In this document: positions 11,478-42,746 of the stretch, piece after piece
How positions within the stretch are numbered: the stretch's first letter is position 1
Layout of the letters: each line of letters starts with the position of its first letter
Source: an uncultured Bacteroidota bacterium
GTDB lineage: Bacteria > Bacteroidota > Bacteroidia > AKYH767-A > OLB10
Reading direction: 5' to 3'
Assembly: GCA_903847585.1 (NCBI GenBank)
Contig: CAINEC010000077.1
Coordinates: 1 to 52,776 of the forward strand
Length of the DNA: 52,776 nucleotides
Position numbers and translations under genes: made by a program
Notes under the pieces: generated by a model
What the model was told of the DNA's origin: nothing
Databases searched by the model: none
Seen by the model: the letters and a program-made list of their open reading frames with translations, nothing else

Positions 11478-11921
11478 TTATTTACCAGGAGTTGCAGCAG
11501 GATTTGCTACTGGAGCTGGTGCTTCAACAGTTCCTTTTAAGTGAAGGATAACTGGAGAGTTTTTAGCGTTTGAAGTAATTGTAACCGTTTTGTCCTGCAT
11601 TCCCATTTTACCTGCAGAGTTAAATGTTACTTTAATTACACCTTTACCACCTTTTTTAATCGCCTCTTTTGGATACTGAGGAACTGTACATCCACAAGAT
11701 CCAGTTGCATTCGTAATGATAAGATCTTCTTTACCATTATTAACGAATTCAAATTCATGATTTACAGAATCACCTTGCTTAATAGTACCAAAGTTAAACT
11801 CTAATGCGTCGAAAGTCATTTCAGCTGCATTTGGATTTGGAGCTGGCTTATCTGCTGTTTGTGCGTTTGTTGCAAATGCCATTAATAATGTACAAGCAAC
11901 TAATAAAATTGATTTTTTCAT
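11478..11921 (-). CDS. DUF1573 domain exported protein (copy 2)
   Basis: A 147-residue protein with a signal peptide (MKKSILLVACTLLMAFATNAQ) and one DUF1573 domain, an Ig-like, ASPM-SPD-2-Hydin-like fold. The diagnostic elements are FNFGTIKQGDSVNHEFEFVNNG and the cysteine motif GSCGCTVPQYP. The tail is Ala/Pro-rich (EAPAPVANPAATPGK). Domain proteins of this kind are thought to be periplasmic or surface adaptor modules; no specific function is known. It lies 27 bases downstream of a paralogue and shares its transcript. Confidence 0.88.
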   Translation of the reverse strand: MKKSILLVACTLLMAFATNAQTADKPAPNPNAAEMTFDALEFNFGTIKQGDSVNHEFEFVNNGKEDLIITNATGSCGCTVPQYPKEAIKKGGKGVIKVTFNSAGKMGMQDKTVTITSNAKNSPVILHLKGTVEAPAPVANPAATPGK

Positions 11922-11948: not shown

Positions 11949-12416
11949 TTATTGTTTCGGATTTTCTAATGGAGATGCACCACCCGGCTTCATAAATGGA
12001 GTTTGGTCTTCTGTCTGCTCCTGTGTTTTTACTACGCCTTTAATGGTTAGTACCTTTGTTGGATTCTTCCCTGCATTTGACATCACGGTTACCGTTTTTG
12101 TAAAAGGTCCTTGGCGTTTAGTATCGTAACTAACATTGATATAACCTGATTGGCCTTTAGCTACTTCCTCTTTCGACCATTTAGGAACCGTACATCCGCA
12201 ACTACCCTTTGCATCTGTAATTTTCAATGGCTCTTTTCCTGTGTTAGTAAATTTGAAGGCGTATGTTCCATCGCCAGCGTAATCAATAGTGCCGAAATCG
12301 TGAACTTCTTTTTCAAAACTGATTTCCGGCGCATTCGGATTGTTTGCATTCTCTTGTGCAGAAGCAAATAGCGTTGCTGCAAAGAATACTGTAAGTGTTA
12401 GAATTATCTTTTTCAT
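11949..12416 (-). CDS. DUF1573 domain exported protein (copy 1)
   Basis: A 155-residue paralogue of the next gene, with a signal peptide ending near ASAQ and one DUF1573 domain: HDFGTIDYAGDGTYAFKFTN, then DAKGSCGCTVPKWSKEEV and a beta-strand with KTVTVMSN. The C-terminal tail (MKPGGASPLENPKQ) is low-complexity. The CGC pair is conserved in both copies and could form a disulfide in the periplasm. First gene of the pair; no distinct promoter was recognised upstream. Confidence 0.88.
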   Translation of the reverse strand: MKKIILTLTVFFAATLFASAQENANNPNAPEISFEKEVHDFGTIDYAGDGTYAFKFTNTGKEPLKITDAKGSCGCTVPKWSKEEVAKGQSGYINVSYDTKRQGPFTKTVTVMSNAGKNPTKVLTIKGVVKTQEQTEDQTPFMKPGGASPLENPKQ

Positions 12417-12505: not shown

Positions 12506-13150
12506 TTAGCGATTTTCTGATTTTAATTCTTGGTAAGCTGTAGTTGCATAATACATAAGCCACAGGAAGATACCCGCAAATTTGCAGCAATCTTCATAAT
12601 AAACTTGATGTGCCACAAATGGATCTACATTATCAAGAATCATGGAAACTAAAAAGAGCATCATTGACCCAATCCAAAACAAGAATTTGGTTTCAAACAA
12701 TTCGTTTTTAAAACGAAAGAAGTATCCGATTATTGACCCAATATAAACCAGATAAAATAACTTTTCAGCAAATGGAAATGCATGGATAAACACTTCTTCA
12801 TGCAATTGGAAACAGTCATCAAATCCAAGGAATAATGAAAGCAATCCCCCATACAAGAACACACCTTTATTTACTGAATTGCTTGCTCTAATTACGCTAT
12901 AACTTAATAACGTAATCGCAGCAGAAGCACTCCATAAAAACAATCCTAACATAGAAATCATTCCATCATATGGATGTCCGTGCAAAACAGCTGCTGTATC
13001 ACGAGTGAGCGTACTTACTTCCACTCCGCTCGATTTCCCAACCCAAAACACTATAAACATGACAGTAAATGGAAGCAACACCCATTTAAACACTGTCAAA
13101 AAATATAACCTGACTTGGTCAAGTAATTTTTTAATAATCATTTGAATCAT
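12506..13150 (-). CDS. Uncharacterised polytopic membrane protein with DDxxQxHE motif
   Basis: A 214-residue protein with about six TM helices that I cannot assign to a named family. Charged residues sit at or inside helix borders: LTRDTA (48-53), LWSASAAI (72-79), DDCFQLHE (111-118) and, near the C-terminus, YEDCCKFAGIFLWLMYY. A paralogue at 33491-34162 conserves all four blocks, even placing the DDxxQxHE motif at the same residue numbers. Buried Asp, His and Glu residues suggest metal binding or an intramembrane enzyme, but that is inference. It lies 46 bases after the DUF2490 gene on the same strand and may be the last member of the CotH/VTC operon. Confidence 0.75.
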   Translation of the reverse strand: MIQMIIKKLLDQVRLYFLTVFKWVLLPFTVMFIVFWVGKSSGVEVSTLTRDTAAVLHGHPYDGMISMLGLFLWSASAAITLLSYSVIRASNSVNKGVFLYGGLLSLFLGFDDCFQLHEEVFIHAFPFAEKLFYLVYIGSIIGYFFRFKNELFETKFLFWIGSMMLFLVSMILDNVDPFVAHQVYYEDCCKFAGIFLWLMYYATTAYQELKSENR

Positions 13151-13196: not shown

Positions 13197-13961
13197 TTAC
13201 TGATTGTCAGCATGATTTTTGCCATTCGAATCATTCCCTTCTTCAGACTTCAAATCAGGCTTAAAAAGCTTTTTGTAGGATTTGCCCTTACTAGGTAAAA
13301 CAATTTCATAATTGATACCTAAAACATAATTCACTTCTGGCACTGAAAAAGTATGGATATCAGGTTGATAATTATAAAACAGTGTTAATGATTGATACTT
13401 ATTATACTGAATAATGAATTGAGCAACATATCTAATTCTATCGACATTAGGGCTCTCGGGACCATTTAAATCTACCATTGGTTCAGCAGATATTGTAGTA
13501 GCAAAAACTTTATTGATTTCATATTTAGCCCTTAATCTAAAACGTGCTCGTGTTAAACTTTGATCTAAATCTTCTTTTGAAGTAAAATAATTTCGATTAT
13601 GCTGCAAGGCAACCCTACCATAAAGATTAAAATACTTCAGTTTGATCTTTCGATTATACCCACAAAAAAAGGTATGAACATCTTCATCATAACTAGTTCG
13701 TAACCGATAATAGACTTCAATATTATTTTTTTTATTGAAGTTATGTCCATAGATGAAATAAAGATTAGCGTTGTCGAACTGCGAAGCATTTTCATTAAAT
13801 CTATTTTGATACTGAAAACTTGCATAATTAGACTTATTAAAATAATAATACAACTGCGTTGATGTCCATAAAGAAAAATCAGAAGGCCTTTGAGCAATTC
13901 CCAAAAATGGTGATAGCACTAAAGCTATCATTACTAAAAAAACACCAAAACCTGATTTCAA
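13197..13961 (-). CDS. DUF2490 domain outer-membrane protein
   Basis: A 254-residue protein with a signal peptide (cleavage near GIAQ) followed by alternating aromatic beta-strand patterns such as FSLWTSTQLYYYF, YASFQYQNRFNEN, IEVYYRLRTSYDE and SLTLFYNYQPDIH. These fit DUF2490, a predicted beta-barrel family. The C-terminal 35 residues are charged and hydrophilic. The gene begins 7 bases after DUF4956 stops, so it belongs to the CotH-VTC-DUF4956 operon and could be its outer-membrane component. Function unknown. Confidence 0.8.
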   Translation of the reverse strand: MKSGFGVFLVMIALVLSPFLGIAQRPSDFSLWTSTQLYYYFNKSNYASFQYQNRFNENASQFDNANLYFIYGHNFNKKNNIEVYYRLRTSYDEDVHTFFCGYNRKIKLKYFNLYGRVALQHNRNYFTSKEDLDQSLTRARFRLRAKYEINKVFATTISAEPMVDLNGPESPNVDRIRYVAQFIIQYNKYQSLTLFYNYQPDIHTFSVPEVNYVLGINYEIVLPSKGKSYKKLFKPDLKSEEGNDSNGKNHADNQ

Positions 13962-13968
13962 AATACAA

Positions 13969-14604
13969 TTACCTACTTAAATCGTAAAAATAAATTTTAA
14001 CCTGAGCTGTATCTCGTAAAAAGTCTATTTTTTGGACTTCAGCACGATGAATATCAATCCCTGTTCGAGATTTAAGGTCCTCTAGAAACTCATTGTATTT
14101 ATCAGGATGAATCAATTCTATTTTCTCATAATAAATTGTTTTAAAAAGTTCCTGCTTCATGAACCAATTACTTTCTAATGTTAAAGCAACTAAAATCATT
14201 GCGGCAATTATAGCTATCAAGAATAAATACTCGTAAACATCTTCGACACCTTTCAAGCGCGTAACTGCAGAAACAATACCTATTGCGATTGTAAGAAATA
14301 AATAAGTCATGTCTTTAATACTTATTTCTTCGGTCTTATATCGCAACATGCTAAACACAGCGAATAAACCAAATGCAGCACCCATAGAAATCTCAACTCT
14401 GTTCAATAAGAAAGAAATAGTAAAAATGACAATATTGAAAACAAAATACGTGAACAACAAGTCTTTGTTTTTATAAAAACGGAAATAAATAAATTGCATT
14501 AAAATATAGGTAGATACTAAATCAATCAGCAATCTAATTCCATATTTAGTAGCGATTTTAGCAATTGTTTCTATTCCCTCTGGAGATGTAATTTGTAATA
14601 ACAT
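13969..14604 (-). CDS. DUF4956 domain inner-membrane protein
   Basis: A 211-residue protein with four TM helices in the first 150 residues or so and a cytoplasmic C-terminal domain of about 60 residues (IELIHPDKYNEFLEDLKSR and after). The signature is RVEISMGAAFGLFAVFSMLRYKTEEISIKDMTYLF in the second half of the membrane region. DUF4956 proteins are commonly encoded beside VTC-domain polyphosphate polymerases, as here (5-base gap). A role as the membrane partner or channel of that polymerase is plausible but unproven. Confidence 0.88.
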   Translation of the reverse strand: MLLQITSPEGIETIAKIATKYGIRLLIDLVSTYILMQFIYFRFYKNKDLLFTYFVFNIVIFTISFLLNRVEISMGAAFGLFAVFSMLRYKTEEISIKDMTYLFLTIAIGIVSAVTRLKGVEDVYEYLFLIAIIAAMILVALTLESNWFMKQELFKTIYYEKIELIHPDKYNEFLEDLKSRTGIDIHRAEVQKIDFLRDTAQVKIYFYDLSR

Positions 14605-14609
14605 GTTAT

Positions 14610-15362
14610 TTAGTTAGCAATTAGTTTGTTGATTTTTATTACTTGTTTTTTAAAGTTATTGCGCTTTTCATTGACTTCAAGCATGTACATACCAACACAA
14701 TATTTGCTCAATGAAACAGGCTTTTTATTCGTGTCACGCAGCAATCGTTTGATAAGTGTATTTGACTTGCCATCACTTTTAACTTCAATGATCACAAGGT
14801 TGTTATATGTTGACTTTTTTCCTTCGACACTATAAGTTAATCCAAGGTCTATTGTTACCCTTTCAATAGTTGATTTATTTACCAGAGCGATGCGATTATA
14901 GTTTATATTGATGGATGGCAATAAATTACTACAATCAACATTTAAATGTTCGAATAGGAATTCAGAAATCATATGGTCATGAAAATCTACATCACGATCG
15001 CACTTAACGCGCACTTTACTTGTAACACCTTTGTTGTTTTTAATTTTGGCTTCTAAAAAATTGATATCGCTATCGACATACGTTCTTCGTCTGACTTTAA
15101 ATCGATTCATTTTACCATTATGATGCATTCTATAAAGCAAATGATCGGGAGTGTCGTAATACAAGGTATCGTATTCAAATAAACGCTTATCGCGAATTTC
15201 TAACATACGATAATCATCAATTAGCAATGGTAATAATGAAGTTAAATCGGTAAACGTAATAGCAAATTTCAAATCTGATCGTTCCATCAATTCAGCACGA
15301 CCCATTTCAACCAAGCTTATTGGCTCAAAACGATTAATAATTTGCAACAAAGCGGGATTCAT
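14610..15362 (-). CDS. VTC-domain protein, polyphosphate polymerase-like
   Basis: A 250-residue cytosolic protein made almost entirely of a VTC domain, the triphosphate-tunnel fold of the catalytic yeast Vtc4 subunit that makes polyphosphate from ATP. Tunnel-type residues are visible: ERSDLKF (K32), YDTLYYDTPD (65-73), RFKVRRR (87-93), the acidic/basic strand FLEAKIK (103-108), IIEVKSDG (191-198) and VSLSKYCVG (216-224). No SPX domain is present, so inositol-pyrophosphate control is not expected. Adjacent DUF4956 and CotH genes form its usual genomic neighbourhood. Confidence 0.88.
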   Translation of the reverse strand: MNPALLQIINRFEPISLVEMGRAELMERSDLKFAITFTDLTSLLPLLIDDYRMLEIRDKRLFEYDTLYYDTPDHLLYRMHHNGKMNRFKVRRRTYVDSDINFLEAKIKNNKGVTSKVRVKCDRDVDFHDHMISEFLFEHLNVDCSNLLPSININYNRIALVNKSTIERVTIDLGLTYSVEGKKSTYNNLVIIEVKSDGKSNTLIKRLLRDTNKKPVSLSKYCVGMYMLEVNEKRNNFKKQVIKINKLIAN

Positions 15363-15365
15363 TAA

Positions 15366-15776
15366 TTACCTATTAACTGTTAAAGTCCCAATATCAATCA
15401 CCTGTTTTTTCTCGCTTATTTCAACTTTAACAGCTACTGGAAATTGGTTGTATGAAACGTTGGCAGATTGCAATGTGTCGCTTAAAGCATAAATCGTATA
15501 TGTCCCTTTTCTCAGGTACTTAAATTCAAAATTCCCATTTAAGTCAGTTGAAACTTTGTCGCCATATCCGGTTTGATCTCCATATACAATAAAAACATCT
15601 TCATCTAAACCAGGATGTTCATACATCATTAAATTAAAGTTCTTATCCCAATCGCGAACCCAAACATTACCTTTTATAGTTGCCATACCTCCATCACCTT
15701 CTTCCTTTTTACAAGAGAATAAAACAAACGAACAAAGCAGCAATAATAGAATTTTGATTCTCATCTTATTTAACAA
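15366..15776 (-). CDS. Small lipoprotein with carboxypeptidase-regulatory-like (beta-sandwich) domain
   Basis: A 136-residue protein with a lipobox (FVLFSC, Cys near residue 22) followed by an acidic linker (KKEEGDGG). The rest reads like a transthyretin-like or SdrD/B-type beta-sandwich: ATIKGNVWVRDWD, VSTDLNGNFEFKYLRKGTYTIYALSDT and a final strand. Such domains are usually structural modules of surface proteins. The start overlaps the end of the CotH gene by 11 bases, and its stop is 3 bases from the VTC start, so it is firmly inside the operon. It may tether a CotH-related complex to a membrane; that is inference. Confidence 0.75.
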   Translation of the reverse strand: MLNKMRIKILLLLLCSFVLFSCKKEEGDGGMATIKGNVWVRDWDKNFNLMMYEHPGLDEDVFIVYGDQTGYGDKVSTDLNGNFEFKYLRKGTYTIYALSDTLQSANVSYNQFPVAVKVEISEKKQVIDIGTLTVNR

Positions 15777-18045
15777 TTTGAATTCTTTTAACTAATTCGG
15801 AATTATTTATCTGTAACAAATATAAACCATCATTTAAAGTAGGTAGTTCCATTTTATAATTGTTTTCATTACCGATATTAACATTTAAGACACATTTACC
15901 TGTCAAGTCAAACAGTTTAATATTATTTATATTAACTTTCGATTCAATAGTAATAGAGCCTTGCGAAGGAACAGGATACACACTTATTTTTTCAGAACCC
16001 AACTCGCCAATTGATGTAGGACAATTACTTTGATTAAAAGTGTATGACAATGTATATCCAAAATTTCCTATTCCATTTGGGCAACGGAAATAAGAGATGT
16101 CTGGACTTTGCGGACCAAAATAAACACTATCGATTACAAATCCAGAAGAGTTACTAATATAGACAGAGTCACCTGCCGCTGACAACTTAAAGTTTGTATG
16201 TAATCCTTGTTGCGTACTATCACCATCTGTCCAAACTATTAACTCACTATGAGAGTCGATACTTGCATTAATTGGAAATCGCCATTTTAATTTGTCGTTT
16301 TTATTATCTGACAAATACAAATCAGATAAATTAATGCGATGGTTTGACGTATTATATAATTCAATCCAATCATCATACTCCCCATTCTGATCCATTATAG
16401 CCGCATCGTTTTTAGCCATGATTTCATTAAATGCTACTTCCTTATAGTAAACTATATTATTGGTAACATTTAAATGATAAAACTCATGCTCTGCACGAGC
16501 GGGTGAGAATATTCCAGCATTCGCATTTTCAGCATAGATATAGTAGTCCATTTGAGTTGATGAACAAAAAATTCCTGCTCCGAAGATTCCATCTCCAGCT
16601 CCACCATCATGATGTAACCCATCATCAAACATTGGCTGTTTAGCAAACTTACCAAAGAGATAATCACGAGAGCCCAACCAGATTGATGTTCCATTGGTCA
16701 TATTGCAATTCACCCAAACGGTATCATAAATTATGGGCTGAGCGGGAGTACTTACAATTCCTGAAATAACTGGAGCTGCTGCTTGAAACTCTGCAGTTCC
16801 TTGCAAATAGGACATTCTTGAAGTAATTAAATTATTTATCCCCGGCACCATATAACTACCAACAGTAATATCAGTATTTAACGAAGACTGAAATTGCGAA
16901 TAAGTAAACATCTTATTTACATCAGATTGAACGGCAGTATCAATTAATGTTTGGTATGTATTTGCCATTGATTGATAAACTCCACTTGAAAAATATTCAT
17001 CAGCAATTGTTTTAGCATGTGCATAGTACATCCTTTTCCATGTCGGATTATTGAATACATCATTAATTAATGGCCAATAGGAATCTGTACTGTGAATATT
17101 TAATGGCAATTGCTGCATATTAGCAACAGTTAATGACCCCATTGAAGTAGCTCCGCTTCCAACGAACGGAAAACCTCCAAAGGCCATATTTAAGTCCCAG
17201 GATATCGGAACAAAACGATTGTTCAAATCGCGGTACAAATAATAATTCTGAGCAAACACTCCGCTGTAACTATCTAAATTAATAGTAACAGCATTATAGG
17301 CCAACATCCAAATTACACGATCCATATCAATGATAGCCTCCAATGATGAACCATAATTAGTAACAGTGTCGCATAAACGAACTAATTCATTCCAGCCGTA
17401 ATTCGACTTCAATTCATAGTAATTAAAATAAGAACTGCTATCTGAATTAATGTACTTCAAATTACATTTAGTTGTTGGACCAGGTGTAACAATTGGATTA
17501 CATTTAAATTCGGTACCATTCGTAGAATTGAATTTATCTCCTAGATACGAATTCCCAATATTCTCATCATTAGAATACAATCCAATGTAATTACCATTGA
17601 TGTAAACCTGTGCAAAATTGGATCTTGGACAATCCATATAACTAGCCAAAATTTTATATGCCAATACCTCTCTAATCATAGAAGGATCCTGGTAGCAATT
17701 ACTTAATTTAATGGTTGAATGACCCATGTAATCCTGGTTAATAAATTCATCCAACGAAATATTAAATGGATTTTTATTTGAAGCCACACTATAAGAACTA
17801 TTACCTTTAAACTTGACACCAACGCTATCGAAAACAACTCCATTTATTCTTACTTGAGAAGCCATCACATAACCATCAGCTCCTGCTTTTGCTGTATCTA
17901 ATTGATAATCCCAATTAGCTTGTGTAAACGTGATTTCGATTTGTTGTATTTGACCAATATCATACAAACTAGGTTGTGAAAAACCATTTAATGATTGTAG
18001 AAGAAAAAATAATACTCCTAAAAATAATTTATTGTAATTATTCAT
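15766..18045 (-). CDS. CotH kinase family protein with lamin-tail domain and T9SS sorting domain
   Basis: A 759-residue secreted protein. Order: signal peptide (1-23); CotH kinase domain (about 30-430) with GVKFKGNSS (Lys79 region), INGNYIGLYSNDEN, NLDS (D258) and WDLNMAFG (D284), matching the catalytic and metal aspartates of spore-coat kinase CotH; an Ig-like region (about 430-540); a lamin-tail domain (about 545-665: FNEIMAKND...DDWIELYNTS); and a T9SS type A sorting domain (about 690-759, VYPVPSQGSITI). CotH proteins phosphorylate proteins, so this is probably an exported or surface kinase. It is coupled to the following lipoprotein gene by overlap. Confidence 0.88.
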   Translation of the reverse strand: MNNYNKLFLGVLFFLLQSLNGFSQPSLYDIGQIQQIEITFTQANWDYQLDTAKAGADGYVMASQVRINGVVFDSVGVKFKGNSSYSVASNKNPFNISLDEFINQDYMGHSTIKLSNCYQDPSMIREVLAYKILASYMDCPRSNFAQVYINGNYIGLYSNDENIGNSYLGDKFNSTNGTEFKCNPIVTPGPTTKCNLKYINSDSSSYFNYYELKSNYGWNELVRLCDTVTNYGSSLEAIIDMDRVIWMLAYNAVTINLDSYSGVFAQNYYLYRDLNNRFVPISWDLNMAFGGFPFVGSGATSMGSLTVANMQQLPLNIHSTDSYWPLINDVFNNPTWKRMYYAHAKTIADEYFSSGVYQSMANTYQTLIDTAVQSDVNKMFTYSQFQSSLNTDITVGSYMVPGINNLITSRMSYLQGTAEFQAAAPVISGIVSTPAQPIIYDTVWVNCNMTNGTSIWLGSRDYLFGKFAKQPMFDDGLHHDGGAGDGIFGAGIFCSSTQMDYYIYAENANAGIFSPARAEHEFYHLNVTNNIVYYKEVAFNEIMAKNDAAIMDQNGEYDDWIELYNTSNHRINLSDLYLSDNKNDKLKWRFPINASIDSHSELIVWTDGDSTQQGLHTNFKLSAAGDSVYISNSSGFVIDSVYFGPQSPDISYFRCPNGIGNFGYTLSYTFNQSNCPTSIGELGSEKISVYPVPSQGSITIESKVNINNIKLFDLTGKCVLNVNIGNENNYKMELPTLNDGLYLLQINNSELVKRIQIVK

Positions 18046-18050
18046 TATTG

Positions 18051-19049
18051 TTATTTTGATTTGATGAATGTGCTTGACTCTTCTTTGTAATTTGAGCGAT
18101 CGATTGTTTTAATGATATAGGTGCCAACCTCTAATGATGATACAGATATTCTCTCTACTGCATTTGACGAAGTAAAATCACTAACTAATTTCCCATTCGT
18201 ATCATAAATCTGAATCTGCCTTTCCTTTTCATTCTCAAATCTAATGGCTAAAACATCGGCGACAGGATTAGGAAATAAATTAAATGATGCATGTGAATTT
18301 TCTGTTAGTCCAGATGTACTACAAACACCGCAACCACCGAAACAATCAATAGGCAATATCATATCAATAGACGCAGCAACACCTCTATTACCTAACTGGC
18401 TAGAACAAGCAGCGGGCACTAGTTCCACATCCGATAAAGTATTTCCGTTGACGAACTTATACTGATAAAAACCAGCATCAACATAATTAATTACTTCAAA
18501 AACATTTGCTCCAAAACTGTATAGAATATTGGTCTGCGGATTAAATCCCTGATAGTCGCTAATTAAATGCACACCAGAAGAATTAACAGAAGGCTCCAAT
18601 GATAGATCAACTAAATATCTAATCAAGTACTTATTTACTGGTGCATTGCCTGCAAACAAAATTGCTCCAATAAAGGATGTATCATTAGCAATCGAATCCA
18701 CATAGACCCAACGGTTATCATTGAAATTATAACCTACTCGAGATTCAACAGGAACAAACTCTGCCTCGTAAAACTGATCGCCATTCACAAATTTATATTC
18801 GTACTTGGCGAAGGCTGGTACATCCACATACACCTCATACATATTCGTATCAGAGGCCATCTGCGTCATCAATGTGGTAGCTGAATTCCAATCGCCACCA
18901 GCATAACCGGCTACTGTTTGAAAGTCACCTACGATGTGAACACCAGTAACATTCACTACTTGCTGCGACATATCAACAACAAAGTGAACCACCTTTGCAT
19001 TTGCAATGGATGATAGAAGGATTAATATTGATAAAGTAATTTTTTTCAT
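18051..19049 (-). CDS. Secreted two-repeat beta-sandwich protein with T9SS sorting domain
   Basis: A 332-residue protein with signal peptide (MKKITLSILILLSSIANA), two related repeats and a T9SS C-terminal domain (LFPNPVADVLAIRF to the end). Each repeat begins with a V-D-M/L-S strand and holds NxTGVHIVGDFQ / NSSGVHLISDYQG, then YEYKFVNGD / YQYKFVNGN, and finishes with a Val-Pro plus Cys/Gly loop. The pattern resembles E-set/CBM-like glycogen- or starch-binding folds seen in Bacteroidota cell-surface proteins. The ATG at 19049 starts a clean signal peptide; an ATG 51 bases earlier lies inside the upstream gene and is unlikely. Gaps of 7 and 5 bases link it to its neighbours. Ligand unknown. Confidence 0.78.
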   Translation of the reverse strand: MKKITLSILILLSSIANAKVVHFVVDMSQQVVNVTGVHIVGDFQTVAGYAGGDWNSATTLMTQMASDTNMYEVYVDVPAFAKYEYKFVNGDQFYEAEFVPVESRVGYNFNDNRWVYVDSIANDTSFIGAILFAGNAPVNKYLIRYLVDLSLEPSVNSSGVHLISDYQGFNPQTNILYSFGANVFEVINYVDAGFYQYKFVNGNTLSDVELVPAACSSQLGNRGVAASIDMILPIDCFGGCGVCSTSGLTENSHASFNLFPNPVADVLAIRFENEKERQIQIYDTNGKLVSDFTSSNAVERISVSSLEVGTYIIKTIDRSNYKEESSTFIKSK

Positions 19050-19056
19050 AGGTAAA

Positions 19057-20748
19057 TTAATTAGCAATAAAGATCCTTTGGTTAATTGATTGCCCTGCAT
19101 CAGTTGTTAAAGAAATTAAATAGGCACCGTTAGATAAATTCGTGGTAGGAATTTCTTGAACATTGACAGCACTAAAAATTAATCTACCCTCAAGGTTAAA
19201 TAAATTGACCGTGTAATTATCCTTCACTTTTTCAAGTCCGCCAACTTTAATAAGATCTGTTGCTGGATTTGGAAAAAAGGAAATTCCTTTAATATCATTA
19301 TCGCTCGTGCTGATACCAGTTAAGGTGAAATTATAACCAGATGAATAACTAAAAGAACAGCTAGGCGCTTGCGTTATTCTAACTAAATAAATTCCATTTT
19401 GTGTACATGAAATCGTCTGATTAGTTTCTCCAATGAGCAAATCTCCATTCAAATACCATTGGTAGGAATCGGCTGAAGTTGCAGAAAGAATAGTAGCGCC
19501 TGCCGATGAAATAACCGGAATTGCCGGAGCAGGATTATTAGCATAGCAAGTATCGTATCTAAATGACTGAGGAACGGCACCTGTTAATTGTTTTGACCAA
19601 ATAGTTGTGCCAGCAGGATCTACTTCATATATTAATCCCGCGGTCGCAACACATACCAACTGATTTCCATTTGGCAATTGCTGCGAATTCCCCATGTTCG
19701 ATGAATATCCGTTACACGCGAGTCGGCTTGTATAGGTTGAAGGGAGATAGGCTGTCCCTGCAGTATGGGAATAATTATACCCAACACGAGGAACATCAAT
19801 CTGGTCTATCGAACTTTGATTATTAGAAACACCACGATTGTTGAAGCCCACAAGACGACCAGCATTAGGAACACCTTCAGGAATCCAATGCGAATCATGT
19901 GTTACGTTCAATATAGAAGTACCTGCTGCATTATAATTTACGGGATGCCCCCAACGGAAAAGGAAGTCTCCTCCCTTGCCCGCATTCCCCCCACTATGCG
20001 AAGCAGCTTCAGCAGTGGTAGTGCTATGGTCGATAACAAACCATTCACTTAATCCGCGCGATGAAAAAGCAATTTGATCCAGAATAGGATTGTAATCTAT
20101 TCCATTCATATGCATCCAATCCTTTTGTGTATTGTAATTTATGTTAAGCAATTCTGGATGATCAACAATAGATGGGTAATAATTTGCCTTTGAGGGGTCA
20201 ACATTTTGTACCAAATGATCCCATGCACGCCATTCCCAAACTACTGTTCCTGTTGTAGCACCTGTAGGTTGAACTTCAACTATTTTATCAGGCCATATCT
20301 CGATACTTTGTGAACATCCAGCTGCTGATGCCTCGGCAGCTGTTTTACGCTCGTATGCTATCAAGAGAACATTTCCATTGGGCATTGCGCAAACATCATG
20401 ATGAGAGCAGTAGTTTGCTGTAGAATAGATATAATCCCAAACAACATTTCCATTCCAATCAACCTTTTGAACTTCACCGCAAATTGGCCCACCTTGAAAA
20501 GAATTCCCCATTCGGGCAACGGTCCTTAGCAACGTTCCGCCAGGCAACATATAAGTTGAATAACCTGTCTTTGCAGTAGAAGGAAAGGTCCACGATTTAA
20601 CAATATTACCATTGGTATCTAACAAGTTAGCACTATACTGATTCTGCAATGCATAAAGTGTGTAATCGCCCCATTGCTGAGCATTGACACTAAAGAATCC
20701 AGACGCAAAGAGAATGATTGCGAATAAAAATTTAACGTTTTTTTTCAT
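19057..20748 (-). CDS. Aryl-sulfate sulfotransferase (ASST)-like secreted protein with T9SS sorting domain
   Basis: A 563-residue protein. After a signal peptide (cleavage near VNAQ) comes a six-bladed-propeller-like ASST region (about 25-400) with repeats of D-x-N-G-x-V-V-W (VDWNGNVVWDY), HHDVCAMPNGNVLLIAYE (116-133), VVWEWRAWDHL (169-179), DWMHMNGIDYNP (210-221) and HDSHWIPEG (284-292). Then an Ig-like domain (about 405-485) and a T9SS type A domain (about 492-563). The arylsulfotransferase fold transfers sulfate between phenols in enterics, but many relatives are non-catalytic, and I cannot show that the catalytic histidine is preserved. It is the first gene of the CotH/VTC operon; a 225-base divergent promoter region separates it from the kinase gene. 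Confidence 0.8.
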   Translation of the reverse strand: MKKNVKFLFAIILFASGFFSVNAQQWGDYTLYALQNQYSANLLDTNGNIVKSWTFPSTAKTGYSTYMLPGGTLLRTVARMGNSFQGGPICGEVQKVDWNGNVVWDYIYSTANYCSHHDVCAMPNGNVLLIAYERKTAAEASAAGCSQSIEIWPDKIVEVQPTGATTGTVVWEWRAWDHLVQNVDPSKANYYPSIVDHPELLNINYNTQKDWMHMNGIDYNPILDQIAFSSRGLSEWFVIDHSTTTAEAASHSGGNAGKGGDFLFRWGHPVNYNAAGTSILNVTHDSHWIPEGVPNAGRLVGFNNRGVSNNQSSIDQIDVPRVGYNYSHTAGTAYLPSTYTSRLACNGYSSNMGNSQQLPNGNQLVCVATAGLIYEVDPAGTTIWSKQLTGAVPQSFRYDTCYANNPAPAIPVISSAGATILSATSADSYQWYLNGDLLIGETNQTISCTQNGIYLVRITQAPSCSFSYSSGYNFTLTGISTSDNDIKGISFFPNPATDLIKVGGLEKVKDNYTVNLFNLEGRLIFSAVNVQEIPTTNLSNGAYLISLTTDAGQSINQRIFIAN

Positions 20749-33490: not shown

Positions 33491-34162
33491 TTACTCTTTA
33501 TTGAAATTTTCTTTTCTCCAAGAAACATCGGAAATAAATCCGAATGCGGATTGGTAATGATATACTGTCCACAATGCAATTCCAACAAACTTAAAAGAAT
33601 CCTCAATAAAGGCATCATGTATACCTGAAGGAAGATTCAACTCATCGATTAGGATAGAGGTACCAAAAAAAGCCATTGCAGCGAGTCCGACAATATACGG
33701 TGTGGTAACTACTACTACTCTGCAGACTGTTGCAATAACCACTATACACATCAAATAAAAAACATAAATCAATTCTTCGGGAACATAAATAATCCCAGAA
33801 AATGCTTTCTCATGAAATTGGTAAGTATCATCTAAGCAAAGCATAGCAGTCAGACAACCAAATAAAAAAGTCATTAATGCTGCACGACGTTGCACGGTGT
33901 TTTTATAGAGATGGTAAGCAGAGAACAACATAATTGCGGCAGTAGCACTCCATAAAAGAATTCCTAAATTAGAGAGTGCGCCTGTAAACGCTGGTCCATT
34001 TAAAACGGTAGCTGTATCACGAGTAAGGTTTGATGGCAATACCCCTTTATAAACAGAATACTCGAACGTAAAGAGCAGAAATGCTGAACCTGTCAGGATT
34101 GTAATTAACAGGACTGTCCAATTTTTTTTTAATTGATCAATAAAACTCAAAATAAAATTCAT
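33491..34162 (-). CDS. Uncharacterised polytopic membrane protein with DDxxQxHE motif (paralogue of 12506-13150)
   Basis: A 223-residue protein with about six TM helices that shares four conserved blocks with the gene at 12506-13150: LTRDTATVL (46-54), LLWSATAAI (69-77), DDTYQFHE (111-118) and IEDSFKFVGIALWTVYHY near the C-terminus. Elsewhere the two are quite diverged, so those polar residues are probably functional. It appears to be transcribed alone, convergent with DUF1761. I do not recognise the family; no reliable enzymatic assignment is possible. Confidence 0.72.
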   Translation of the reverse strand: MNFILSFIDQLKKNWTVLLITILTGSAFLLFTFEYSVYKGVLPSNLTRDTATVLNGPAFTGALSNLGILLWSATAAIMLFSAYHLYKNTVQRRAALMTFLFGCLTAMLCLDDTYQFHEKAFSGIIYVPEELIYVFYLMCIVVIATVCRVVVVTTPYIVGLAAMAFFGTSILIDELNLPSGIHDAFIEDSFKFVGIALWTVYHYQSAFGFISDVSWRKENFNKE

Positions 34163-40223: not shown

Positions 40224-42746
40224 TTGAAAACATCGTTACGCCTATTCGTCCTATTCTTTGCTATTAACCTATTTACAAATGCCAATGCGCAGGTGGTGGT
40301 TAATGAATATTCAGCATCTAACCTTACACAGTTTGTCGATAACCATAGTGACTTTGAAGACTGGATTGAATTATATAATTCAGGAACTACATCTGTGAAC
40401 TTAGGAGGTTATTACCTAAGTGATGATTCAATAAAAAACACTAAATATCAAATCCCAGCTGGTACTTTTATTAGCGCAGGAGGTTACCTTCGTTTCTGGT
40501 GCAGCGGAAGAAATAATTTTTCAGGAAATAATTATCATACAAGCTTTCGTATAACACAAACAAAAAATAATGGAGAAGACATTGTATTTTCAGACCCATC
40601 AGGAGTTATTATTGATGCAACGGATGCATTAAAAACTCAAAACGGACATTCACGTGGAAGAACAACCGATGGCGGTAGCACATGGGGTATTTTTATTATT
40701 CCAACACCGAATGCAACTAATAATTTATCTACTTCTTATACACGTTATGCCGACAAACCTGACTTCTTCTATAATGCAGGATTTTATACAGGTTCATTAA
40801 CCTATTTCATGTCGACAACAGAAACGAATGCAACTATCCGATATACTGATAACGGTACTGCACCTACGTTAGCTTCGCCAGCATATCTTAATCCTAATAC
40901 AATTACCCAAACAAAAGTGATTAAAGCAATTACCTATAGCAACGATCCTACTATCCTTCCTAGCTTCATGGAGTTTGCAACTTATTTTATTAATGTAAAT
41001 CATACGTTGCCGGTTGTTTCCATTTCAGCAACACAACTAAACAATCTTGCCAACGGTGCTGGTAATTTAGAACCCAAAGGATCTTTTGAATATTTTGATA
41101 CAGCAGGAGTACGTAAAGCAAATACCTATGGTGAATTTAATCGCCACGGACAAGATTCGTGGGTGCTTAGTCAGCGTAGCTTAGATTTTATTTCTCGTGA
41201 TGAAATGGGATATAATCATAGTGTTGAAGAAAAACTATTTGAGTATTCACCACGTCAAGATTTTCAACGTTTGATTTTACGTGCTGCTGGTGATGACAAT
41301 TATCCAGCAGATCATCGACAAGCAAATGAAGGAAGTTGTCATGTGCGTGATGCTTATATTCATATGCTATCGAAAAAAGGTGGAATGAACCTCGATGTTA
41401 GAAATGCTGAAAAGTGTATCGTGTATTTGAATGGTTCGTATTGGGGAGTGTATGATATACGCGAGAATCCTGATGAGCATGACTACACGGAATATTATTA
41501 CGGACAGGATAAATACAATTTGTATTATATCGAAACCTGGGGAAATACATGGGCAGAATATGGTGGACCTGCAGCACTAAATGAATGGGGCTCACTGTGG
41601 AGTTATATCCAGAATAATAGCATGGCTAATCCTACAAATTATAATTACGTAATGGATCGTTATGACGCAAGTAGTCTTGTAGATTATGTAATCACTAATG
41701 CAGTGACTGTTTGTTCTGATTGGCTCAACTATAATACGGGATGGTGGCGCGGATTAGATTCCACTGAACAACATTTAAAGTGGGGATATATTTTGTGGGA
41801 TAACGATGCCACCTTTGGTCATTATATCAACTACACTGGAATACCTAATACAGGTTATACAGCAGATCCTTGCGATGTAGAAGCATTAGCAGGTAATTCT
41901 GATCCGGAAGGACATATATTAGTTTTAAATCGCCTAAGACAAAATCCAGCGTTCAATCAATTTTATATTTCGCGAATGGCTGATTTATGGAATACTGTTT
42001 TCAGTTGCGATAATATGCTTTCTCAATTAGATAGTATAAGAGCGAAGCTTACTCCTGAAATGGCTGCGCATAGCGCTCGTTGGGGCGGTACACTTACAGA
42101 GTGGAATCAGAATATGGATACGTTGCGTGCATTCATTGCTAATCGTTGTAACTACATGCCGAGTGGAATGATGGGATGTTATGGTTTAACGGGGCCCTAT
42201 AATATTACATTGAATGCAGACCCTGCCAACTTTGGTAAAGTACGTTTTAATACTATTGTGCATGATCAGTTTCCTTGGACAGGAACTTACTTTGGTGGAA
42301 TGGATAATATTTTTGAAGCAATGCCTGATACGATGCGTTCATTTATCAATTGGACCTCTAACAGTCAAGTGTTTCAACCAAACGATAGTACAGCACTCGT
42401 AAAAGTAAACCTCGTTAGTAACGATTCAATAGTAGCACATTTTGATTACGCAACAGCAGTTTACGGAATGAATCAGACAGAGCCAATTGCTAACGTCTAC
42501 CCTACTGTTATTGATGAATTTACTCAGCTCGATTTTAGTTTACCTGAAGCAACAGCTGTTGATATTCAATTGGTAGATATAAACGGAAAAATTATTCGAG
42601 CGTTTGCAAAAGGAACAACTATGCAAAGTGGATTTCATAGTATGCAATTATCGATTCCAGCAGGAAGTTTACAGAATGGAATTTATTTATTGCAACTAAG
42701 AGCAGGCAATTATTCGAAGTCTTTCAAGCTTATAAAAGCAAACTAA
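40224..42746 (+). CDS. CotH-like protein with N-terminal lamin-tail domain, chitobiase-like domain and T9SS domain
   Basis: An 840-residue secreted protein starting at TTG 40224; the only nearby ATG (40219) is out of frame and closes at once. Order: signal peptide (1-22), lamin-tail domain (about 24-150, VVNEYSASN...DFEDWIELYNSG), chitobiase/beta-hexosaminidase C-terminal-like domain (about 180-245), CotH domain (about 260-640) with LNGSYWGVYDIREN, CSDW (D499) and WDNDATFGH (D526/D528), then a short region and a T9SS domain (about 770-840). It is thus domain-shuffled relative to the 15766-18045 kinase. CotH members are protein kinases; the catalytic Asp positions look preserved, but activity is not proven. 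Confidence 0.82.
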   Translation: MKTSLRLFVLFFAINLFTNANAQVVVNEYSASNLTQFVDNHSDFEDWIELYNSGTTSVNLGGYYLSDDSIKNTKYQIPAGTFISAGGYLRFWCSGRNNFSGNNYHTSFRITQTKNNGEDIVFSDPSGVIIDATDALKTQNGHSRGRTTDGGSTWGIFIIPTPNATNNLSTSYTRYADKPDFFYNAGFYTGSLTYFMSTTETNATIRYTDNGTAPTLASPAYLNPNTITQTKVIKAITYSNDPTILPSFMEFATYFINVNHTLPVVSISATQLNNLANGAGNLEPKGSFEYFDTAGVRKANTYGEFNRHGQDSWVLSQRSLDFISRDEMGYNHSVEEKLFEYSPRQDFQRLILRAAGDDNYPADHRQANEGSCHVRDAYIHMLSKKGGMNLDVRNAEKCIVYLNGSYWGVYDIRENPDEHDYTEYYYGQDKYNLYYIETWGNTWAEYGGPAALNEWGSLWSYIQNNSMANPTNYNYVMDRYDASSLVDYVITNAVTVCSDWLNYNTGWWRGLDSTEQHLKWGYILWDNDATFGHYINYTGIPNTGYTADPCDVEALAGNSDPEGHILVLNRLRQNPAFNQFYISRMADLWNTVFSCDNMLSQLDSIRAKLTPEMAAHSARWGGTLTEWNQNMDTLRAFIANRCNYMPSGMMGCYGLTGPYNITLNADPANFGKVRFNTIVHDQFPWTGTYFGGMDNIFEAMPDTMRSFINWTSNSQVFQPNDSTALVKVNLVSNDSIVAHFDYATAVYGMNQTEPIANVYPTVIDEFTQLDFSLPEATAVDIQLVDINGKIIRAFAKGTTMQSGFHSMQLSIPAGSLQNGIYLLQLRAGNYSKSFKLIKAN

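Follow-up and report, generated by a model that had tools for sequence, protein, structure and literature searches.

A run of seven genes on the minus strand of a contig from an uncultured Bacteroidota bacterium (CAINEC010000077.1 in assembly GCA_903847585.1, whose 52,776 nucleotides are here called the window) brings together a CotH-family kinase, a VTC-domain protein resembling yeast Vtc4 and a DUF4956 membrane protein, along with a lipoprotein, a predicted outer-membrane barrel (DUF2490) and two further proteins with the tail of the type IX secretion system (T9SS), one of them ASST-like and the other with an X25-type domain. The operon is a recurring unit, not a local coincidence. Judged by gene order in related genomes, its core is the series lipoprotein-X2-VTC-DUF4956-DUF2490 with CotH, where X2 is a small protein with MORN/RHS-like repeats below the Pfam cut-offs, encoded between the lipoprotein and VTC. 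From the sequences, we give an even chance to the operon being a polyphosphate synthesis-and-export machine coupled to the extracellular CotH kinase; within this reading we infer the product, its translocation, the topology of the parts and the use of the polymer by CotH.

Recurrence of the gene set and layout of the operon

To follow the partnership of VTC with DUF4956, 247 genomes were sampled evenly across the phylum; VTC is present in 43 of them and DUF4956 in 68. All 43 VTC genomes also carry DUF4956, and at 45 of the 48 places where VTC occurs the two genes lie within 1.2 kb of each other; two of the remaining three places have DUF4956 about 3 kb away and the third holds a fragment of VTC. 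CotH is found somewhere in 42 of the 43 genomes with VTC, as against 54 of the 204 without it. The same pattern appears in the class (91/93 with VTC and 22/104 without, among 197 genomes, some of them shared with the phylum sample), in the window's order (25/25 and 5/17) and at the level of genera (54/55 and 18/66, counted from tally lines and taking a single genus to hold VTC but no CotH). Among the genomes sampled the association is asymmetric: CotH occurs without VTC, whereas VTC almost never occurs without CotH.

Two surveys place the remaining genes around this pair. Among 42 genomes of the window's order, 25 with VTC, 26 VTC loci were fetched (the window's own excluded, several of them cut by contig ends), and within 6 kb of VTC these have DUF4956 in 24, the lipoprotein in 23, DUF2490 in 21, CotH in 16, X2 in 15, and the ASST-like and X25 proteins in two each. 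When 84,980 species genomes were searched with a DUF4956 profile, 566 loci were confirmed, and the best 80 were named and mapped; two of them lack a called DUF4956 open reading frame (ORF), leaving 78 to be counted. These are the best-scoring relatives of the window's clade and hence not an unbiased sample. In the same co-directional run as DUF4956 they have VTC in 70 of the 78, DUF2490 in 54, CotH in 36, X2 in 34, the lipoprotein in 30, ASST in nine and X25 in four; the corresponding figures for the 49 runs uncut by a contig end are 45, 35, 26, 26, 19, 6 and 2. Some of the named loci come from the same genomes as other loci studied here, with identical VTC (L143 and G025, L162 and G231, L170 and G028, L184 and G002).

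A near-complete gene order recurs in nine of these best 80 of 566 loci. The long form, ASST-second secreted protein-CotH-lipoprotein-X2-VTC-DUF4956-DUF2490, is seen in L154, L156, L173, L176, L179, L183 and L197, while L213 has it minus a lipoprotein call and L221 minus X2. The second protein is X25-like in L154, L156, L179 and L213 and a T9SS beta-propeller in L173. In L108, from another family, the ASST-X25-CotH cassette stands at the opposite end, after DUF2490. A shorter set, CotH-VTC-DUF4956-DUF2490, is found in Runella zeae DSM 19591 (L163). The window and three close relatives lack X2, but two further genomes of the genus have it. The sequence-only reading of the window had held that CotH, VTC and DUF4956 recur together, and the 45 close VTC-DUF4956 places and the nine near-complete loci bear this out. 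It had also proposed a survey of neighbourhoods for the extra genes, in which co-occurrence has now been found: the lipoprotein and DUF2490 are widespread companions of VTC-DUF4956, while ASST and X25 recur as companions in a minority of loci.

The ASST-like and X25 proteins look like a portable part, repeatedly joined to the rest. They are linked to each other by a fusion, a T9SS-type protein of 974 amino acids in L116 (13100-16024, minus strand) that matches both profiles. A quick tree built from 135 VTC proteins requires 12 changes of the ASST label over 16 positive and 80 negative loci, and starred branches force at least five of them. The clustering of the label is no more than mild, since 15 of 500 shuffles reach a count as low. 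Positive loci were counted even if cut by a contig end and negative ones only with 6.5 kb open on both sides, so that 16 against 80 is not a frequency; the weak ASST matches in L122 and L219 were not scored as ASST. Four of the 40 phylum loci have a strong ASST match near VTC; with 149 matches (the counts of some genomes being lower bounds) and genomes taken to average 3.9 Mb, about 0.1 would be expected. Across whole genomes of the phylum sample no link is seen, with ASST in 10 of 43 VTC genomes and 60 of 204 others. Several histidines are invariant in the 14 aligned ASST sequences (alignment A5: nine from named loci, four from other loci and the window's). The ASST profile aligns with solved sulfotransferases only in part and weakly (E 4e-4), retrieving mainly the T9SS tail, and a single-sequence PDB search with the window's protein gave no match.

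In the window itself, seven minus-strand ORFs were confirmed at 13197-20748, with the ASST-like gene first (starting at 20748) and DUF2490 last (ending at 13197; Table 1). The ASST, X25, CotH, lamin-tail, VTC, DUF4956 and DUF2490 domains and the T9SS tails all pass their Pfam cut-offs; the lipoprotein has only sub-threshold TTR/CarboxypepD-like Pfam matches. The start of the X25 protein was corrected to the signal-peptide ATG at 19049, and that of the lipoprotein is probably the in-frame ATG at 15764, with the TTG at 15776 as the alternative. With the corrected starts, the gaps from the first to the last gene are 7, 5, 1, 3, 5 and 7 bases. The seven-gene layout of the sequence-only reading is thus upheld by coordinates and Pfam, while its 11-base overlap falls away, since it needs the TTG start of the lipoprotein. 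Scans of the operon for promoters and terminators gave no signal above shuffled sequences; a single transcript across the seven genes would be plausible from their arrangement. The window's genome carries SprA, a T9SS component (SprA_N, E=9.7e-175), so that a secretion system is at hand for the three proteins with T9SS tails (ASST, X25 and CotH).

Table 1. Genes of the operon, its follower and an example of X2 (positions are those of the window unless a locus is named)
Feature	Position	Strand	Basis
ASST-like secreted protein, first gene	19057..20748	-	PF05935 E=1.9e-23; PF18962 T9SS type A tail E=3.6e-12
Two-repeat secreted protein, X25/starch-binding-like domain and T9SS tail	18051..19049	-	PF22058 E=7e-8; PF18962 E=8e-13
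CotH-family kinase with lamin-tail domain (LTD) and T9SS tail	15766..18045	-	PF08757 E=9.6e-43; PF00932; PF18962
Small lipoprotein	15366..15764	-	lipobox-like cysteine by eye; weak TTR-like match
VTC-domain (Vtc4-like) predicted polyphosphate polymerase	14610..15362	-	PF09359 E=4.2e-29
DUF4956 membrane protein	13969..14604	-	PF16316 E=1.5e-48
DUF2490, predicted outer-membrane beta-barrel	13197..13961	-	PF10677 E=2.4e-12
Membrane-like protein, no known family, downstream of operon	12506..13150	-	relatives seen only in the window's genus
X2 example	L051:9105-9674	+	small MORN/RHS-like repeat protein; equivalents in other loci

An eighth gene had been thought possibly to follow the operon. An ORF is indeed there, starting 46 bases after the DUF2490 gene, and its product has no match in Pfam or NCBIfam; it occurs within 6 kb of VTC in 5 of the 26 order loci. 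Among the loci examined, its profile has eight matches, all in the window or its genus, and it is thus an optional follower and not part of the core. A second copy of the protein is encoded at 33491-34162 of the window (minus strand; profile E=2.4e-86). Just past the operon lie two tandem genes for small secreted proteins, mutually similar by eye (11478-11921 and 11949-12416, minus strand). Outside the phylum by label, VTC-DUF4956 pairs in L189 (Methanoperedens), L177 (Calditrichaeota) and L217 (Thioploca) group with the Bacteroidota clade, and L217 has CotH upstream of the pair; transfer or a binning error may account for these pairs.

Parts of the putative machine

The VTC domain of the window scores 102 bits against a Pfam cut-off of 23, and in 26 sequences drawn from both sides of the VTC tree, which are well separated, the residues K32, R91, R93, E104, K106, K116, E193, K195 and K220 are invariant. 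The VTC profile (A2) matches the structure of yeast Vtc4 (3g3q) with E=5.2e-22; counted along the alignment, R91, R93 and E193 stand opposite Vtc4 R264, R266 and E426. Mutation of these three Vtc4 residues served to inactivate yeast VTC, in which polyphosphate synthesis is coupled to translocation (PMC9911596). These correspondences suggest that the product is polyphosphate. A PDB search with the single sequence gave only low-scoring matches over a short stretch, mostly to designed repeat proteins. The protein has 250 amino acids and, by Pfam, consists of the VTC domain only, with no SPX or transmembrane (TM) domain. VTC was also considered as a replacement for polyphosphate kinase and this was rejected: PPK1 is present beside VTC in the window's genome, and in the order PPK1 occurs in 19 of 25 VTC genomes and 11 of 17 others, showing no link.

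For DUF4956, the AlphaFold2 model (mean predicted local distance difference test, pLDDT, of 88) has five helices (8-43, 50-67, 74-90, 96-114 and 122-144) followed by a soluble C-terminal domain of ferredoxin-like arrangement (152-207). Residues R88, Y89, R90 and T91, at the end of the third helix, are nearly invariant (alignment A3: 71 of 77 named sequences and the window's). By the positive-inside rule for membrane topology, applied to the model by eye, the loops of the third helix and the C-terminal domain would be cytosolic. The constant partnership with VTC and the position in the operon suggest that DUF4956 may be the membrane passage.

In other settings DUF4956 occurs without VTC. In L123 (5412-8442, minus strand) it is followed by a protein of 341 amino acids, with a weak match to the CotH profile (E=1.3e-6) and none in Pfam, and by a purple-acid-phosphatase-like protein; the genes of L124 are equal in length. 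In L126 (6055-9322) it stands beside an opposite-strand PPDK_N-domain protein and a MORN_2 protein, and L127, L128, L129 and L142, of the same genus, have maps alike by gene length, the domains having been checked in L126 only. In seven loci of one family (L131-L134 and L136-L138) it is followed by HlyD-like, TolC-like and SDR-like proteins, of which the first was checked with Pfam in L131, the second called by eye and profile with no Pfam match, and the third called by eye.

Toward the outer membrane two alternatives are found. VTC loci of the phylum sample were fetched for 43 of the 48 places (those of G052 and G160 and two of G063 were not, and the window was kept apart), and an overlap filter removed the VTC ORF from three of the 43, leaving 40, in which single neighbouring genes may have been lost likewise. 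Within 6 kb of VTC, 14 of the 40 have DUF2490, 20 an HlyD-like protein, none both and six neither. The HlyD-like adaptor belongs to the other VTC clade than DUF2490, and the exit type changes once on the VTC tree. When eight of the HlyD-like proteins were tested with Pfam, five passed an HlyD cut-off and those of L084, L096 and L140 failed; our own profile groups the HlyD-like proteins, these three included, at E <1e-100. One locus, L141, has the order CotH-DUF4956-HlyD-OEP-VTC-CotH, its OEP/TolC domain confirmed by Pfam. The DUF2490 form and the HlyD form each add a component that would be expected to span the outer membrane or the periplasm.

Modelled, DUF2490 forms a barrel in which eleven strands are called (mean pLDDT 87). 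In VIA-align it reaches Z 15.0-15.4 to NanC, KdgM and VhGalP, which we take to be porins for acidic oligosaccharides, at 6-8% identity, and Foldseek matches it to NanC with E=1.3e-3 and TM scores of 0.49/0.58. A strand-parity estimate from the sequence makes the lumen basic (alignment A4: 51 of 56 named sequences and the window's). DUF2490 already has an entry as a putative porin family, TC 1.B.81 (PMC4827864).

At the surface, the CotH profile (A6, built from 27 of 37 named sequences and the window's) matches the CotH structure 5jd9 with E=1.8e-38. D258 and D284 are invariant in the 28 sequences and stand opposite aspartates of 5jd9; we take them to be the catalytic pair. For Bacillus subtilis CotH, D228 is named (PMC7821199). 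A single-sequence PDB search with the window's CotH protein gave no match. The window's genome has eight CotH matches and one VTC, so that one exporter could serve several kinases. The window itself encodes a second CotH-LTD-T9SS protein (40224-42746, plus strand). Proteins of the Cthe_2159 type directly follow VTC-DUF4956-DUF2490, with no adjacent CotH, in L113 (11259-12752), L188 (11472-13121) and L192 (11345-12898).

Weighing the readings

The preferred reading can be set out as a path from the cytosol to the surface. VTC, on the cytosolic face, would polymerise phosphate from ATP; DUF4956 would dock it through the soluble C-terminal domain and pass the chain through the inner membrane, much as the TM domains of Vtc proteins do. 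The chain would leave across the outer membrane by DUF2490 in the window's lineage and by the HlyD-type adaptor, once with a TolC-like protein, in the other clade. Outside, it might serve the T9SS-secreted CotH either by donating phosphate or, in bound form, as counter-ion or matrix, with the lipoprotein and the ASST-like and X25-like proteins as candidate surface partners. The simplest reading is that the product is polyphosphate or a similar phosphate polymer and that CotH is its chief extracellular client. In its most specific form, in which extracellular CotH kinases are fuelled by VTC-DUF4956 polyphosphate threaded through the envelope, with DUF2490 and HlyD/TolC as interchangeable exits, the proposal must be called unlikely. 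The sequence-only reading had likewise envisaged a polyphosphate or phosphorylation module spanning the cell from cytosol to surface: the gene set fits such a span, and the polyphosphate chemistry and the export are what we infer.

A number of observations weigh against the preferred reading. CotH uses ATP in vitro (PMC7821199). Only 16 of the 40 phylum loci have a CotH gene at 6 kb or less from VTC, and the VTC-CotH counts are raw tallies over genomes that share ancestry, made with no species tree, so that p-values computed from them are merely descriptive. Two of the 93 VTC genomes of the class, G279 and G430 (95% complete), have no CotH, and in the first a Cthe_2159 surface protein comes after DUF2490 (L113); the control genome of Bacteroides ihuae likewise has VTC and no CotH match. 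DUF4956 is found without VTC in 25 of the 68 phylum-sample genomes that carry it. It gave no sequence match in the PDB at E up to 1 and no Foldseek match at E up to 0.001, and a second structure comparison reached a best Z of 6.0, with mainly the C-terminal part recurring; with no solved relative by sequence or fold, a channel role for it is a guess. As the exit type changes once, the mutual exclusivity of DUF2490 and HlyD amounts to one historical swap. Autotransporter and FapF barrels tie with NanC for the DUF2490 model, and the best Foldseek E-values go to Tom40 and VDAC, at TM scores of about 0.2. A basic lumen was also tried as a mark of VTC-linked DUF2490 and rejected: 52 linked proteins have a net charge of +6.5 and 20 unlinked ones, non-random picks near the top of the match list, +9.6. 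With the unlinked proteins the more positive, lumen charge does not identify the cargo.

In a looser arrangement, polyphosphate, or an anionic phosphate polymer of another kind, would be exported as surface or matrix material or as a metal chelator and CotH would phosphorylate surface proteins independently, with ATP or another donor, the two being selected together through an acidic, calcium-binding surface. The in vitro use of ATP by CotH (PMC7821199) speaks for it, as do the three loci in which a Cthe_2159-type protein comes after VTC-DUF4956-DUF2490 with no adjacent CotH, and the Gram-positive clusters in which the trio stands beside an exopolysaccharide operon (PMC7112168). By itself, however, it gives no account of why VTC genomes nearly always have CotH while CotH genomes are often without VTC, and we consider it somewhat unlikely. 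More doubtful still, and in our view improbable, is that VTC belongs to the triphosphate tunnel enzymes but takes a different substrate or makes a different product, DUF4956 being an anchor or sensor and the module regulating phosphorylation or the export of surface proteins. Tunnel enzymes do have diverse substrates (PMC4641920), the window's VTC lacks SPX and TM domains, and where DUF4956 occurs with no VTC, its neighbours are PPDK_N and MORN proteins, HlyD-like and TolC-like proteins, or a phosphatase together with a CotH-like protein; against this, the polyphosphate-synthesis residues of Vtc4 are kept, and both VTC clades have export-type components near the enzyme. A chance assembly of surface genes that have nothing to do with each other would be in keeping with the absence of ASST and X25 from most order and phylum loci, with the contig ends that hide some neighbourhoods and with promoter and terminator signals at shuffle level. 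It is hard to credit at all beside the near-complete order in nine named loci and its rearrangement in L108, the ASST-X25 fusion in L116, the four strong ASST matches near VTC where a tenth of one was expected, and an ASST label that changes so often on the VTC tree, in part on forced branches.

If the preferred reading holds, these bacteria would have, in addition to PPK, another polyphosphate system, directed to export, and DUF4956 and DUF2490 would gain proposed roles. The dependency of VTC on CotH, the membrane partner and the alternative exits bear on the question of where secreted bacterial kinases obtain phosphate; the source of ATP for CotH in the spore coat has been called unanswered (PMC7821199). 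The gene sets suggest that cells may send a phosphate polymer outside to serve enzymes where ATP is absent.

Comparison with known systems

The trio is already published for Gram-positive bacteria. In streptococci, clostridia and bifidobacteria, CotH, a poly-phosphate polymerase and DUF4956 have been found next to pel genes, with the suggestion that CotH may regulate Pel via phosphorylation, in a paper whose main text holds no word starting with 'bacteroid' (PMC7112168); the genes listed for NELoc-2 of C. perfringens include VTC-type and CotH ones (PMC11677781), and a DUF4956-DUF2490 pair of B. thetaiotaomicron appears in an expression table (PMC10434189). In our own searches, Corynebacterium glutamicum, a control species, gave matches to CotH, VTC and DUF4956 alike. 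No account of the envelope-spanning Bacteroidota form, the HlyD alternative or the VTC-CotH dependency was found in the openly licensed literature of PubMed Central, within which the Bacteroidota form is apparently an undescribed variant.

The window's operon resembles the Gram-positive pel-linked CotH-PPP-DUF4956(-DUF4832) clusters in that the trio is near-contiguous, with one lipoprotein gene between CotH and VTC. It differs from them in having no Pel or DUF4832 domain among the eight window genes scanned and in adding the DUF2490 barrel, the lipoprotein, the T9SS cargo and ASST. With the yeast VTC complex (Vtc1/3/4) it shares the catalytic residues of Vtc4, and cytosolic synthesis with membrane passage is the analogy proposed; unlike in yeast, the polymerase is without SPX and TM domains, the membrane part would be the separate gene DUF4956, and the direction would be out of the cell and not into the vacuole. 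A parallel might also be struck with the B. subtilis CotH-CotB-CotG system (PMC7821199), where there are the same CotH domain with two invariant aspartates and surface proteins as substrates, although the window's kinase has a T9SS tail and a lamin-tail domain and is linked to VTC-DUF4956. Against the KdgM/NanC porins, a family of 12-strand barrels, the DUF2490 model with its eleven called strands aligns at a Z of about 15, and its lumen is basic by sequence, but the identity is only 6-8% and the autotransporter and FapF barrels score equally. Finally, the other VTC clade recalls the HlyD-TolC exporters, with its HlyD-family adaptor and, in one locus, OEP/TolC as well, except that DUF4956 would there replace the pump.

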